Shown here: in pieces, positions 4,457 to 21,891 of the stretch
Layout of the letters: each line of letters starts with the position of its first letter
How positions within the stretch are numbered: the first letter of the stretch is position 1
Origin: a virus
DNA length: 23,472 bases
Virus record (IMG/VR): IMGVR_UViG_3300027972_000053
Span: 1-23,472 of that record
Direction: 5' to 3' (one strand)
The notes under the pieces: model-generated
Databases searched by the model: none
The model's input: the letters and a program-made list of their open reading frames with translations, nothing else
What the model was told of the DNA's origin: nothing
Position numbers and translations under genes: made by a program

Positions 4457-4528
4457 TTTCAGCTTGACCTTGTTTCGATGTTATATGACCTCTTTTCACC
4501 GTTTGGTGAAAGTGCGCAAATATTAACA

Positions 4529-4562
4529 CATTGTGTATATAAGTGCAAGTCATTACACATTA
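4529..4562 (-). repeat. 34-bp direct repeat, copy 1
   Basis: Reads CATTGTGTATATAAGTGCAA then GTCATTACACATTA on the plus strand. It matches copy 2 (4770-4803) at 33 of 34 positions, in direct orientation, 241 bases apart. Each copy also has short inverted arms, TGTGTA and TACACA. It overlaps the stop codon of the small membrane gene and lies about 73 bases upstream of the Lar-like gene start. Confidence 0.85.
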
Positions 4563-4745: not shown

Positions 4746-4769
4746 TATTTCCTCCGTTTATAAAATAAT

Positions 4770-4803
4770 CATTGTGTATATAAATGCAAGTCATTACACA
4801 TTA
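4770..4803 (-). repeat. 34-bp direct repeat, copy 2
   Basis: Second copy of the repeat at 4529-4562, with a single A/G difference. It covers the last codons and stop of the zinc gene at 4794-4994 and ends about 25 bases upstream of the membrane gene start. Both copies therefore lie at gene junctions, but in different reading frames. This points to a DNA- or RNA-level role, or a recombination scar, not conserved coding. Confidence 0.85.
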
Positions 4804-12380: not shown

Positions 12381-12914
12381 TTATAGATCAAGCGCAGCTT
12401 GACAGTTATTTATATTTTCAAATTCTAAAAAATTAGTTAATGCAAATTCACCAAAATATTGACGCGCCGCTTTATCATATGCTTGCGCGGCATGTTTTTC
12501 GTTTGTAAATGCACCCAAATAATATCTTTTGTTATCAAATCCAATATGAGAACACCATTTATTTTTCGACTTGTTCCAATAAACCCCTTTATAAATACTC
12601 GTCTTGTTTATTGTTTGTATTTTATTGTTTCTTAAATTTTCGGCATGAGTGCATATTCTTAAATTGTTTTTAGTACAATTTAATCCAATATGGTCAATAT
12701 GATCAACAACCATTTTATTTTTTACATTTAAAACAAATCTATGTAAATATATAGATTTCCATTTTTTATTAATTTTTACTCTTGCAACAGCATAATTTGT
12801 ATCGTTTTTATAATTAAGGTGCCAATTATAAATTGAAGCTTTTTTATAATCTTCATCATCAACAACAGCAAACAATCCGCACCCTCTTTTCCCTGCAAGT
12901 GGTATTTGTTTCAT
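12381..12914 (-). CDS. HNH homing endonuclease with AP2 DNA-binding domain
   Basis: The 177-residue protein has an HNH core (IYLHRFVL at 55-62, VVDHIDHIGLNC at 69-80, then KNNLRICTHAENLRNN with the Asn) followed by an AP2 domain at about 107-161 (YKGVYWNKSKNKW...YYLGAFTNEKHAAQAYDKAARQYFGEFALTNF). This is a standard free-standing homing endonuclease that nicks or cuts one DNA site and spreads itself by repair. The gene is more AT-rich than its neighbours. It sits immediately upstream of the replication initiator, a favoured place for such elements. Its ATG overlaps the stop of a 30-codon open frame. It is not expected to serve the phage life cycle. Confidence 0.88.
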   Translation of the reverse strand: MKQIPLAGKRGCGLFAVVDDEDYKKASIYNWHLNYKNDTNYAVARVKINKKWKSIYLHRFVLNVKNKMVVDHIDHIGLNCTKNNLRICTHAENLRNNKIQTINKTSIYKGVYWNKSKNKWCSHIGFDNKRYYLGAFTNEKHAAQAYDKAARQYFGEFALTNFLEFENINNCQAALDL

Positions 12915-13003
12915 AAGTCACCCGAATAAAAAATGCACGCCATAGCGCCAATAATCCCAAAAAGGCAAGGAAGATTTTCTACGACGTGCATTTTAATTTT
13001 CAT
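12911..13003 (-). CDS. Tiny hydrophobic open frame (30 aa)
   Basis: Reads MKIKMHVVENLPCLFGIIGA followed by a hydrophobic MACIFYSGDL end, with AAGGA seven bases before the ATG and an ATGA overlap with the HNH-AP2 gene. One hydrophobic span is plausible. The same stretch holds perfect 10-bp inverted arms (AAAATGCACG at 12930-12939 and CGTGCATTTT at 12985-12994), so it could instead be an RNA structure or a leader that couples translation of the endonuclease. Confidence 0.4.
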   Translation of the reverse strand: MKIKMHVVENLPCLFGIIGAMACIFYSGDL

Positions 13004-13895: not shown

Positions 13896-13923
13896 AATTT
13901 ATAAAATTATTTGAAATTGTCAA
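13896..13923 (-). promoter_or_regulatory. Possible sigma70 promoter (TTGACA-16-TAAATT)
   Basis: A perfect TTGACA (minus strand, 13923-13918) sits in the last codons of the methyltransferase gene. A TAAATT at 13901-13896 follows after 16 bases. A better -10 (TATAAA) lies only 14 bases away. The site is in the 42-base gap before the gene starting at 13877. Confidence 0.4.
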
Positions 13924-14939
13924 GCGGTTTCGTCGTCCTCATCCATGCAAACCAACTCGCAATCCTTACTTGTTTCCTCATCACCGAAATCAAGCGAATA
14001 TTGATTTGTCTCTTCCTGGTCAAAAAGAACCTGCTGAATATTTTTCAATGCCTGATTATAGTAGGTTGTCTTTAGTTCAATCCCAATAGCTTTTCGCCCA
14101 AGACTCAAAGCCTCGTAAACCTCCGAACCAACACCCATAAAAGGACTTAAAACAATATCGCCTGGATTTGACCAAAGAACTAAACACCTGTCTATTATAT
14201 CAAGCTGCAAAGGGCAAACGTGTTTTTCTTCCTCACTTTCTCTTGCTTCTCTGTAAGGTAAAAGTCTACCAGTTCTAATGTCGCTCCAAACCGGCGAAGC
14301 GTACCTCCGCCAAATCTGATGACTTAAAAAGTTCTTTTTCTGGTCGCCCGTATAATTTTTAAACTCATTCGCCAATATCTCGGAAATAGGCTCTTCGCCA
14401 TAGTATTTTTTGAATCCGTGCTTGTGAGAAATAAACTCTAAGTTTTCTCCGCTTTTTCTAAAAACAAGAATATAATCCGGTCCGGCAATCCGCGCCTTGC
14501 TTGAATCGTTTACGATTGTTTTGTGCATCAATGATTTCATTCGTGTGCGCCGCGCAATCAGCCAAGGGTCTTTCCAAATAGTTATCCGGCAAAAGAAATT
14601 AAAGCCCGCATCTTCATGGAGTCTTATAATATCACCTGGAAAATCCTTTTGATATAAAGAACCTTTTTTCAAATCCATGCAATGAACCGCAGTCAATCGC
14701 CCTGGCTTTATAATTCTATGGATCTCGTTTACGATAAATTTATATTGATCTATTCCCTCTTCATATGTCTTACAGTTCGACATATCCCGCGGATCGTTTG
14801 AGTATTGATAAAGCTCTGGGAAAGGAGGAGAGTAAACCGAAAACCCGATTGATTCCTTTTTAATTTCCGGCAAAACCTCCATACAATCCGCGTTGTAAAC
14901 CGCATAATTTTCTGTAATTTCCTGCAATGCTACACCCAT
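13920..14939 (-). CDS. DNA methyltransferase, N4-cytosine/N6-adenine type (SPPF), helicase-linked
   Basis: This 339-residue beta-class methyltransferase has motif IV as SPPF (37-40) and motif I as SPFMGVGSE (265-273) followed by ALSLGRKAIGIEL. HVCPLQLDI at 240-248 corresponds to the HPxQKP block. SPPF/SPPY is more typical of N4-cytosine enzymes, but adenine cannot be excluded. A large middle region (85-240) would recognise the target. The ATG overlaps the helicase stop by 10 bases with GAGGTG upstream, so the two proteins are made together and may form a complex. No restriction nuclease is present. It is the second, unrelated methyltransferase in this window, the first being the DLPYG enzyme at 5508-6272. 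Confidence 0.85.
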   Translation of the reverse strand: MGVALQEITENYAVYNADCMEVLPEIKKESIGFSVYSPPFPELYQYSNDPRDMSNCKTYEEGIDQYKFIVNEIHRIIKPGRLTAVHCMDLKKGSLYQKDFPGDIIRLHEDAGFNFFCRITIWKDPWLIARRTRMKSLMHKTIVNDSSKARIAGPDYILVFRKSGENLEFISHKHGFKKYYGEEPISEILANEFKNYTGDQKKNFLSHQIWRRYASPVWSDIRTGRLLPYREARESEEEKHVCPLQLDIIDRCLVLWSNPGDIVLSPFMGVGSEVYEALSLGRKAIGIELKTTYYNQALKNIQQVLFDQEETNQYSLDFGDEETSKDCELVCMDEDDETA

Positions 14940-16303
14940 GACGGCACCTCTATTTCTTTTGTAAAGTTGTTTATCATCTCTATCTTTTCAGCGTTTCGCA
15001 TTTCGGCGACCAAAAACTCAAACATATTGTCCGCCTGCTTTTGTTTTTTCTGCAAATTTGCCGTTACCCCGATCTCTCCCTCAGTTGTTATGATATCAAT
15101 TTTAACCGGTTCTTTTCGACCGAACCTCCAAGACCTTCTAACCGCCTGATAGTATTGCTCAAACGAATGACTTGGAAAAAATGTTTGATGCCCGCAATGT
15201 TGCCAGTTCAATCCCCATGCTCCAATTTTAGGCTTTGTTACCAGCACTCTTATTTTGCCATAAGTGAAATCAAGTAACCGTTGCTCTTTATCTTCATCTG
15301 TATCTTTTCCCGCAATCTGCACACTTTGAGGAATTATCTTTTCCAGATAATCACCTTCGTCATTATATTGGCACCATACAACAGCCGGCCTATCATGGTC
15401 TACAAGTTCAGCAACTTTCTGACATCTTTCTTTTAATGTCATTCTTCGTTCCTGCCTTTGCTCGTTTAGAGTTACCGCCACCTTTTGAAATAATTCACCA
15501 GGCAATAAATTATCATGATCAACTGTGTGCTGTTTTATAATTAATTCCGGCAAAATAAAACCATCATCCTCAAAATCATAATCGTGCGGATTTCTTATTG
15601 CTCTTGCCCACGAACAAACCCAACGCCAAAAAGGTATTTCAGAATGTGCTTTGAAAAAATACTTTGCCCTGTTCCAGAAATCCCCGTCTTTAAAAAGTGA
15701 ATGCCTTGCATTATCATCGTTTTTAAAGTAAAGTCCGATCATCTCACTTTGTGTCATTTCGCCTAAAGCCTCGGATGCTGTTCCAAGCTCGATATAATCA
15801 TTCGGCGCAGCCGTCGCAGTGCATAAAAGCCTATACTGCATTTTAGACAAAAACCGCGTGACTTCTTTTCGACGTTTTCCATCGAATGCTTTTATTGCGC
15901 TGCTTTCATCGCAGACAACACCAACAAAATCGTATTGATCAAACTTGTGCAACTGTTCATAATTCGTGACAGTTATTCCCTTGTGCGCCGTACCGTCATG
16001 CGACCTCTTGACCTCGATTCCAAACTTTTCCCCTTCCCTTATGGTCTGATAACTAACGGCTAACGGAGTCAAAATCAAAACATTCTTATTCGTTTTCTGT
16101 ACAATGTTCTCGGCCCACACAAGCTGCATCGGAGTTTTCCCCATTCCGCAATCCGCAAATATTCCGCAGCGTCCTTTTTTAATCGCCCACTCTGTTAAAT
16201 ACTTTTGAAAATCAAACAGGAAATCCGGCATCCACACAGGATCGAACCCATAGCCGTCATTTCCAAGCTGTGATTTTCTGGCTATAAATTCATTGTATTC
16301 CAT
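14930..16303 (-). CDS. SNF2/DEAD-type ATPase (helicase or translocase) paired with the methyltransferase
   Basis: The 457-residue protein is a superfamily 2 ATPase. A Q-motif-like FQKYLTEWA (32-40) precedes Walker A ADCGMGKT (50-57). CDESS (131-135) stands in for DEAD/DEAH, TATAAPND (162-169) is motif III, and QAVRRSWRFGR (386-396) is motif VI with its arginine finger. A Phe/Trp-rich insertion (about 185-260) sits between the lobes. The architecture matches compact SNF2-like phage helicases often encoded beside a DNA methylase. It probably moves along double-stranded DNA. Coupling to the methyltransferase suggests modification during translocation, or remodelling of the target. It overlaps the upstream deoxyribosyltransferase-like gene by 22 bases and has GGAGAATTGTTAAA before the ATG. 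Confidence 0.82.
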   Translation of the reverse strand: MEYNEFIARKSQLGNDGYGFDPVWMPDFLFDFQKYLTEWAIKKGRCGIFADCGMGKTPMQLVWAENIVQKTNKNVLILTPLAVSYQTIREGEKFGIEVKRSHDGTAHKGITVTNYEQLHKFDQYDFVGVVCDESSAIKAFDGKRRKEVTRFLSKMQYRLLCTATAAPNDYIELGTASEALGEMTQSEMIGLYFKNDDNARHSLFKDGDFWNRAKYFFKAHSEIPFWRWVCSWARAIRNPHDYDFEDDGFILPELIIKQHTVDHDNLLPGELFQKVAVTLNEQRQERRMTLKERCQKVAELVDHDRPAVVWCQYNDEGDYLEKIIPQSVQIAGKDTDEDKEQRLLDFTYGKIRVLVTKPKIGAWGLNWQHCGHQTFFPSHSFEQYYQAVRRSWRFGRKEPVKIDIITTEGEIGVTANLQKKQKQADNMFEFLVAEMRNAEKIEMINNFTKEIEVPSWV

Positions 16304-17085: not shown

Positions 17086-17360
17086 CGTTTCCATCCTCTT
17101 TTAAGCGGTTCAAAACAAGCCTTTTTATCGCTTTCAATTATCCGCAAAATGTCGCCAATGTGCTTTTTATAAAGTTCCTGCACAGCCGGCCAGTCTACGT
17201 TTCCGCAGTACCATGCGTTATCGTCATCAAGCTCCGCCGGCCTGAATGTCACTGTTCGCAGTTTTTTGATATCTTTTAGAAAGCCTTTCCAGTCACCTTT
17301 GAAGTCGTTAGTTTCAAGGATGAAGTACTTTCCAATATTTTTGTTATTCATTGTTTTCAT
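17082..17360 (-). CDS. Hypothetical protein (92 aa)
   Basis: This soluble, mixed-charge protein has LETNDFKGDWKGFLKDIKKL near the start and a central YCGNVDWPAVQELYKKHIGDI block. The end is basic (CFEPLKRGWKR). The start follows the previous stop as TAATG, with GAGG ten bases upstream. No known domain is evident. It belongs to a run of four small uncharacterised genes between the GC-rich island and the helicase operon. Confidence 0.55.
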   Translation of the reverse strand: MKTMNNKNIGKYFILETNDFKGDWKGFLKDIKKLRTVTFRPAELDDDNAWYCGNVDWPAVQELYKKHIGDILRIIESDKKACFEPLKRGWKR

Positions 17361-17545
17361 TACTTTAAAGCCTCTTTATATATTTCATAAACGCCCGGGC
17401 CGACTTTATCTGCTTTTAATTTTCTTACGTTTCCTCTAAAAATAATATGATCTTCATCATTCAAAAGCATTTCGTGCCAAGTTTTAGTCGTAACCCTTTG
17501 TCGAAATTCTTCAAAAACCCACATGCTGTTACGTATTTTTTCCAT
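17360..17545 (-). CDS. Hypothetical protein (61 aa), first gene after the GC-rich island
   Basis: Reads MEKIRNSMWVFEEFRQRVTT, then WHEMLLNDEDHIIFRGNVRK and VGPGVYEIYKEALK. It has a helical start and beta-like end, with no metal ligands or membrane segments. GGAG lies seven bases before the ATG. The stretch just upstream (17567-17657) can fold strongly, so this gene could be controlled by that leader. The family is not recognised. Confidence 0.55.
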   Translation of the reverse strand: MEKIRNSMWVFEEFRQRVTTKTWHEMLLNDEDHIIFRGNVRKLKADKVGPGVYEIYKEALK

Positions 17546-17566
17546 TTTAATTCTCCAGTTTTAAAA

Positions 17567-17657
17567 GTTCCGGCGGGGTGTTTGCATTTTCACCGGCACA
17601 CACGTGTCTAACGTGTCGCTCTCCTTATGCCGCGGCTATTTACCGCCACGCCGGAAC
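17567..17657 (-). ncRNA. GC-rich, highly foldable 91-base island (candidate structured RNA)
   Basis: In an AT-rich genome this spacer is strikingly GC-rich. Perfect 9-bp outer arms (GTTCCGGCG at the 5' end and CGCCGGAAC at the 3' end of the minus-strand copy) enclose three smaller hairpins. These are GCGG/CCGC with a 7-base loop, ACACG/CGTGT with loop TTAGACA, and GGTG/CACC with a 10-base loop. A TTTT run follows the last arm. This is cloverleaf-like but has no T-loop GTTCRA and a 15-base linker, so it is not a normal tRNA. One reading frame also ends in a peptide, NANTPPELLKLEN, resembling the NPNTPPEVL repeat motif, so a decayed gene end is an alternative. Confidence 0.4.
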
Positions 17658-17661
17658 CAGT

Positions 17662-17892
17662 TTATTCGTCCTCATGTAAAGTAGGATAAATTTCTTTATC
17701 GTACTCTTTCTTGTTCTTTTTTGCCTGCTTTTCGGTACTGCCATAAATCACTGTATCGTCTTTATCGGACTCGGTTGTATATCCATACTTTTCACCGTCG
17801 CCGCCAACTTCTTTGACATCGTCTCCGCCACAGTCACCCGCAAAGTTAAGAGCAAAAAGCAACAAAGTCAAGAGAATTAATTTCAGTTTCAT
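17662..17892 (-). CDS. Small exported acidic protein
   Basis: The 76-residue product has a clear signal peptide (MKLKLILLTLLLFALNFAG). The mature part is charged and hydrophilic (DCGGDDVKEVGGDGEKYG, then KDDTVIYGSTEKQAKKNKKEYDKEIYPTLHEDE). A Cys lies just after the hydrophobic core, but AGDC is not a proper lipobox, so ordinary signal peptidase cleavage is more likely. GCGAGG precedes the ATG. It ends only five bases before the GC-rich island. A periplasmic role is likely; none is known. Confidence 0.6.
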   Translation of the reverse strand: MKLKLILLTLLLFALNFAGDCGGDDVKEVGGDGEKYGYTTESDKDDTVIYGSTEKQAKKNKKEYDKEIYPTLHEDE

Positions 17893-17942: not shown

Positions 17943-18167
17943 TTAATTGAAATGTACCGATATAATACCATCAAAATCATCTTGAATGATATGCCCTGTG
18001 CCATAAATACGAAAAGTTCTTTTTTCTTTTTCTGCGTCCGGATCAACAAGAACCCATAATTGCGGTTCATTGTTTTGAACTTGAACTGACAAAACCACTG
18101 CGTCTTTTGGCATTTCAAATTCTGAATCATCCGGCGATAAAGTATATTTCCATATTGTTTTCATCAT
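17943..18167 (-). CDS. DUF7352-like phage protein
   Basis: This 74-residue protein matches a common phage family of unknown role: KTIWKYTLSPDD at the start, MPKDAVVLSVQVQNNEPQLW in the middle, VLVDPDAEKEKRTFRIYGTG near 39-58 and a final IISVHF strand. It is a compact all-beta protein. The binding site GGGGTGA overlaps the end of the upstream membrane gene (ATGA junction). Two adjacent ATG codons at 18167 and 18164 could serve as start. The function of the family is not established. Confidence 0.75.
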   Translation of the reverse strand: MMKTIWKYTLSPDDSEFEMPKDAVVLSVQVQNNEPQLWVLVDPDAEKEKRTFRIYGTGHIIQDDFDGIISVHFN

Positions 18168-18271
18168 TCACCCCAATTCATTTTATTAGGTTCTTTTTTG
18201 TTCAAGTTAGATATAACCCAGGCGGCTAGAAAGCCCACAAGATATGCTATTATTGCTACAATCCAAATCAT
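18164..18271 (-). CDS. Tiny single-span membrane protein (35 aa)
   Basis: Reads MIWIVAIIAYLVGFLAAWVI, then a charged tail SNLNKKEPNKMNWGE. One clear transmembrane helix starts at the first residue. GGAGG lies six bases before the ATG, and the gene overlaps both neighbours by four bases (ATGA style), which strongly suggests it is translated. Such small phage membrane proteins often affect host membrane proteins, but none can be named here. Confidence 0.6.
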   Translation of the reverse strand: MIWIVAIIAYLVGFLAAWVISNLNKKEPNKMNWGE

Positions 18272-21204: not shown

Positions 21205-21224
21205 TCTTGATTCGCGAATTGCAA
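21205..21224 (-). repeat. 20-bp direct repeat, copy in the untranslated leader
   Basis: TCTTGATTCGCGAATTGCAA matches 21061-21080. It ends about 20 bases upstream of the ATG at 21185 and contains the overlapping palindromes ATTCGCGAAT (21210-21219) and AATTGCAATT (21217-21226). Confidence 0.6.
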
Positions 21225-21264
21225 TTAACCGGCGCAAGATTCCGAGAAATCCCGCACCGATTGG

Positions 21265-21891
21265 TTATTTCTCCTGAATTTTATCAACGACCTGGATTTC
21301 CAGTGCCATCAACATTTTATTAAATTCATTCACCGCACTTTCAAGCATGCGAATATAAACATCATCGCGTTCAATCTGTATTTTGAAATGCTTAAATTTC
21401 GGATGATATCCGAGCAAGTCCCACCATTGGCGTCCAGTCACCCAAAGGGAACCCTGCACCTGGGGAATAAACTTTGTCGGAATAATACCATCAAGCAACA
21501 TCTCAAAATGATTTGTTGCTTTCAGGCATTTTATCTCAAGTCCGCCGTCATCGCCGATTAATCCGTCCGGCGAACATCCGACAGCTTTTGATTCGTCAAG
21601 GTACACAAAACCGACTTGCTTCACAGTTAAGTCATAAACAAGTTCGTAAAACATCCGCGCCTCTGTTTCGACTACGTGGCCGCGCTCGGTCCATTGATTA
21701 CCTTGAAATTTGTCAACATCTTCACCGCCGTACTTTTCGGCAATCAATTCAAGTGCGTACATCCGCGCCTGCGTTGACTGCTTTCCTGTCGGTGTTAAAA
21801 TTCTATCAAAGTTTGATGCTGTTGGAATCCCAACCCGCAAGGCAAACCATTCCGGCGTATTCTGTTCTACATTATCAATTATGATAGCCAT
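21265..21891 (-). CDS. YqaJ/lambda-type exonuclease
   Basis: This 208-residue protein has the YqaJ viral recombinase/lambda-exo blocks in order: TPEWFALRVGIPTASNF at 12-28, ERGHVVETEARMFYEL at 69-84, CSPDGLIG (Asp109) and LEIKC (Glu119/Lys121), then PQVQGSLWVTGRQWWDL with the Gln pair. These make the metal site that digests one strand of a DNA duplex, giving 3' tails. With the adjacent ERF annealing protein it forms a Red/RecET-type pair. The ATG overlaps the ERF stop codon. Length is near the 200-230 residues of the family. Confidence 0.85.
   Translation of the reverse strand: MAIIIDNVEQNTPEWFALRVGIPTASNFDRILTPTGKQSTQARMYALELIAEKYGGEDVDKFQGNQWTERGHVVETEARMFYELVYDLTVKQVGFVYLDESKAVGCSPDGLIGDDGGLEIKCLKATNHFEMLLDGIIPTKFIPQVQGSLWVTGRQWWDLLGYHPKFKHFKIQIERDDVYIRMLESAVNEFNKMLMALEIQVVDKIQEK

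Follow-up and report, generated by a model that had tools for sequence, protein, structure and literature searches.

The window analyzed here, i.e., the whole stretch of 23,472 bases, is a single linear virus record with a G+C content of 38.6%. Its genes lie almost wholly on the minus strand and include those for a replicative helicase, an ERF annealing protein, a methylase and an SNF2-type helicase, together with many small unknown ORFs. A G+C-rich island lies in a gap of 116 nt, which separates the stop codon of a 76-aa ORF (17662-17892) from the ATG of a 61-aa ORF (17545), both encoded on the minus strand. The features of this locus, read from the upstream to the downstream gene, are the following:

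17662..17892, minus strand: upstream ORF of 76 aa with a lipoprotein-like N-terminus and no family match
17657..17663, no strand: right direct repeat CCAGTTT, overlapping both the final base of the outer arm and the stop codon of the upstream ORF
17649..17657, minus strand: 5' outer arm GTTCCGGCG, from sequence and fold, extending to about 10 pairs
17631..17646 (approximate limits), minus strand: first inner hairpin, GGCGG TAAAT AGCCGC, in the MFE and centroid structures
17594..17630 (approximate limits), minus strand: second inner hairpin with a 6-bp ACACGT-type stem, in the MFE structure
17576..17593 (approximate limits), minus strand: third inner hairpin, GGTG-AAAATGCAAA-CACC, in the MFE structure
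17567..17575, minus strand: 3' outer arm CGCCGGAAC, from sequence and fold, pairing with 17649-17657
17562..17656, no strand: candidate inserted element, 95 bp between the direct repeats, 56% G+C
17555..17561, no strand: left direct repeat CCAGTTT (AAACTGG on the minus strand), overlapping the Shine-Dalgarno region of the 17545 gene
17360..17545, minus strand: downstream ORF of 61 aa, unknown, with its ATG just past the left CCAGTTT repeat

The 91-nt core of the island (17567-17657) has a G+C content of 59.3% vs. 38.6% for the window, in agreement with its preliminary description as a GC-rich island in an AT-rich genome. At least 59% G+C over 91 nt is reached at five places in the window, the other four being in or at predicted genes, and the G+C excess of the island ranks second among 62 non-coding gaps of at least 70 nt in 82 loci (the helicase-sharing phages and the window itself). 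We found no minus-strand ORF with a start codon that would cover half of the island gap; each remaining gap with a length of at least 100 nt does contain one. It is the combination of two properties that is distinctive: among the gaps of that length in the window, this one alone lacks a plausible small gene, and its 91-nt core has a rare 59% G+C. In the other long gaps, at 306-440, 805-951 and 18164-18271 (minus strand), small ORFs of 35-48 aa are found with Shine-Dalgarno-like sequences. The island itself is non-coding. Of the open stretches that cross it, five have 20 or more residues, and none of these gave a match in Pfam; tblastn of three of them against phages stayed at chance level, and NANTPPELLKLEN forms the end of an open stretch of 25 residues that has no start codon in a suitable position.

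The outer arms GTTCCGGCG and CGCCGGAAC are perfectly complementary 9-mers, as had been noticed before, and the window has no further 9-bp inverted repeat within 130 nt that contains 7 or more G/C. Such GC-rich arm pairs are expected 0.07 times per window, and 7 of 100 resamples (order-1 Markov) contained any. The predicted fold is a four-way junction built from the outer stem and three hairpins on both strands, which bears out the earlier cloverleaf-like picture. Its energy amounts to -40.3 kcal/mol on the minus strand and -37.0 kcal/mol on the plus strand, with z-scores of -2.77 and -2.75, respectively, vs. 1500 dinucleotide shuffles (mean -31 kcal/mol), 9 and 13 of which were as stable as the island. 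The predicted excess of structure is thus moderate and the fold energy alone unremarkable, given the search over many gaps; other stretches of the window, mostly coding, match or exceed this fold once G+C is adjusted for. In a 320 nt context, the pair probabilities of the outer arms are 0.98-1.0 (0.67 for the innermost pair), and the downstream Shine-Dalgarno sequence and ATG have an unpaired probability of about 0.7-0.85. The second inner hairpin has a long unpaired purine-rich side, ATAAGGAGAGC, with an AAGGAG stretch that is predicted to be unpaired and has no start codon behind it at usable spacing. The outer stem is followed by TTTT and then AAAA on the minus strand, and by TTT on the plus strand. 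Of the T-run in the preliminary description, the four T are indeed present; as a terminator signal they are weak, with AAAA next and a terminator scan that found nothing at the island. No promoter-like site was predicted there either.

Other structures and repeats were observed in the window. Its strongest G+C-adjusted RNA fold lies at 21215-21330 (minus strand) and is strand-specific (-39.2 kcal/mol minus, -19.7 kcal/mol plus). It comprises a 16-bp hairpin with G-U pairs (AATCGGTGCGGGATTTCTCGGAATCTTGCGCCGGTT), located between a YqaJ-like nuclease ORF, which it directly follows, and the next ORF, and gave no credible match in Rfam; in our view it makes a stronger case for an RNA-level element than the island does. 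At 12911-13003 (minus strand), an unlisted ORF of 30 aa, resembling a membrane peptide (MKIKMHVVENLPCLFGIIGAMACIFYSGDL), adjoins an AP2/HNH-like ORF, and the ends of this ORF form a long inverted repeat (AAAATGCACG.../...CGTGCATTTT). Two adjacent gaps, at about 4510-4560 and 4750-4795 (minus strand), share a nearly identical word of about 24 nt (TGACTTGCA-C/T-TTATATACACAATG).

Searches for known relatives of the island gave none. In Rfam, at gathering and relaxed thresholds, the best match scored 13.5 bits vs. the 49.9 needed (E 9.2), and ARAGORN, in default and relaxed, intron-free settings, detected no tRNA or tmRNA cloverleaf with a T-arm and an anticodon arm in the island; both outcomes agree with the initial impression that this is neither a normal tRNA nor a known riboswitch. 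A single ARAGORN match in intron mode was an AT-rich wrap-around artefact outside the island. BLASTN against 50,697 phage (GenBank) and 72,556 plasmid (PLSDB) records returned no convincing match, and the island-adjacent proteins recovered no syntenic or usable relative from IMG/VR; one candidate locus, L002, was dismissed as its match was a 30-residue patch within an unrelated 477-aa ORF. A profile of the helicase retrieved 80 IMG/VR loci, none of which has the genes adjoining the island, and the block conserved in these loci stops at the helicase-methylase pair. This pair of DNA methylase and SNF2-type helicase (13920-16303, minus strand) is kept as a two-gene unit in most of the 80 IMG/VR loci and is also found in Synechococcus phage S-H1, with flanking genes that differ between loci. 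A covariance model of the island, being built on one sequence and so a weak probe run without a positive control, found only itself in the approximately 80 helicase loci and nothing in 22 whole records. Pattern scans led to rejected candidates as well: the 40 hits of the arm pattern in viral contigs were all in stretches of at least 50% G+C with unrelated interiors, the loop pattern gave one hit, about the chance number by a rough estimate of collection size, in sequence that lacks the fold, and the 24 hits of a half-element pattern in genomes were GC-rich chance matches lacking the second arm. Most of the chance hits from these patterns fell within GC-rich genes. The searched sets may omit the records closest to the window, and these negatives mean that no relative was found rather than that none exists. 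No homolog, and hence no covariation, turned up in anything searched.

The one DNA match worth mentioning spans 36 nt at 83% identity in an unannotated contig from an E. coli phage preparation (OR845951.1, L005), with an E value of 0.9. Its reverse strand reads like the GGVSNVSFSFRG stretch of methionine synthase; a PDB search with the island frame resembling this stretch gave nothing. We rejected the match as chance based on the E value and the absence of support at the protein level (Pfam, tblastn, PDB). The entry itself, labelled as an Escherichia phage, is 1,427 bp long and looks like host chromosomal sequence, presumably a metH fragment, which suggests that some INPHARED entries may be host contamination.

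The island is bordered on both sides by the 7-bp direct repeat CCAGTTT. A shared word of at least 7 bp would arise by chance in comparable flanks in about 4% of cases, and for this reason the insertion proposed here is tentative. Deleting one repeat together with the insert leaves GAATAAACTGGAGAATTAAAATGG, i.e., a normal spacing of stop codon, GGAG (Shine-Dalgarno) and ATG; such an empty junction (GAATAAACTGGAGAATTAAAATG) was found in no relative, so that the empty site is an imagined one. The inverted arms sit unequally from the two repeats, at 0 and 5 bp, which is a point against an insertion. A model of one island strand recognizes the opposite strand at 17.6 bits, which, along with the alike folding of both strands, is expected of a palindrome at the DNA level and not of an RNA shaped on a single strand. 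No second copy was detected in the window, in phages or plasmids, in the approximately 80 helicase loci and 22 whole records, or by pattern scans. Within that scope, the single copy counts against an insertion, as a mobile family should be repeated. Translational bypassing between the repeats was also considered and rejected, given that a stop codon is met ahead of the take-off repeat and that translation in the landing frame would end immediately.

Of the explanations weighed, we tentatively favor, at somewhat less than even odds, a short palindromic insertion that is co-transcribed as a stable intercistronic structure. According to this proposal, a non-coding GC-rich palindromic element of about 95 bp would have entered the short space separating two phage genes of the minus strand, probably through transposition of some kind or illegitimate recombination, with the 7-bp direct repeat as its trace. 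Besides this repeat, the normal junction left on its removal and the palindromic folding, the gap lacking a small gene, the G+C contrast and the largely open RBS are in line with it. As the flanking genes share one strand, the element is probably transcribed within their polycistronic message, where a stable four-way junction may form immediately 5' of the exposed ribosome-binding site of the downstream gene. Its role would at most be passive, either separating the translation of the two genes or slowing message decay. A functional structured RNA of the phage lineage, acting between the genes either in cis, with a bound protein or ligand, or as a separate small RNA, is possible but rather unlikely. 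The stable and well-defined junction with outer-arm pairing near certainty, its location precisely in the interval from a stop codon to an RBS within a compact operon and the unpaired purine-rich strand AAGGAGAG are points in favor of such an RNA, whereas the equal folding of both strands, the RBS and start left free by the fold, the lack of any Rfam match, of homologs and hence of covariation, and of a promoter-like site at the island all speak against it. The version in which the island is the founding member of an undescribed class of four-way-junction phage RNAs, expressed from the operon and acting via a bound protein or ligand, appears very improbable. As for the earlier suggestion of a leader controlling the gene at 17545, only its position speaks for it, and the near-equal folding of both strands and the mostly unpaired Shine-Dalgarno sequence and start codon argue against a leader of the riboswitch type that sequesters or occludes the RBS.

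The island might instead be what is left of a coding sequence, whether the decayed end of a gene or a GC-rich piece acquired horizontally, or else a coincidence driven by composition, with an incidental cloverleaf; we regard this as unlikely. A GC-rich 91-mer folds readily, as the shuffled sequences indicate, and the 36-nt match is a further point in favor of this reading. On the other hand, Pfam has no match in any frame, tblastn and PDB give no better, so that the decayed gene end of the preliminary description is not borne out, and perfect GC-rich arms of this length are rarely expected in such a window. Still less probable is a structure at the transcript end of the upstream gene, in which the outer stem and UUUU would serve as a weak terminator or as a barrier to decay or site of nuclease processing. 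The position directly after the stop codon and the stable stem followed by TTTT are in line with it. An intrinsic terminator, though, has a GC-rich hairpin directly before a U-rich tract, and here the terminator scan is empty, the tract counts only four U before AAAA, and the stem, whose longest helix is about 10 bp, encloses 73 nt of structured RNA; moreover, the next same-strand gene, about 20 nt further on, would depend on a promoter of its own, but no such promoter is predicted. Taken together, the island is real yet orphan. Most likely it is a small palindrome that was inserted and has, at best, a passive role, and its reading as a functional RNA is unproven. At present it stands as a single unsupported example; should relatives show covariation, it would represent a new phage RNA.

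Compared with known systems, the island resembles a tRNA cloverleaf in its outer stem and three hairpins, yet it differs from a tRNA in having no T-loop or CCA-type end and in its long asymmetric second arm. The T4 gene 43 operator, the e leader and mobE are phage mRNA structures at translation starts (PMC3014915) and, like them, the structure of the island lies just 5' of a phage gene and would be on the same message. There, the RBS is covered by the structure itself or by a bound protein, whereas the predicted fold of the island leaves it open. Small bacterial palindromic insertions and MITEs are flanked by a short direct repeat, for which the CCAGTTT copies bordering the island are a candidate counterpart, i.e., a putative target-site duplication; the perfect 9-bp arms are likewise candidate terminal inverted repeats. 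Most MITEs, however, have a high A+T content, terminal inverted repeats and TA ends, whereas the island is G+C-rich, its arms are not exactly at both ends and, unlike MITE families, it is present as a single copy with no linked transposase or sister copy found. YPAL/RU-2 are short bacterial elements that are not A+T-rich, contain internal inverted repeats and have duplications of 3-26 bp (PMC2229807), and the transcripts of small palindromic elements can affect the decay of host messages (PMC10969869). Like Correia/NEMIS, RUP, RPE and YPAL/RU-2, the island is shorter than 200 bp, non-coding and intergenic, with stem-loop inverted repeats (PMC2229807, PMC10969869); if the insertion is true, the modest point would follow that short palindromic elements known from bacterial chromosomes also enter compact phage operons and leave the genes unbroken.
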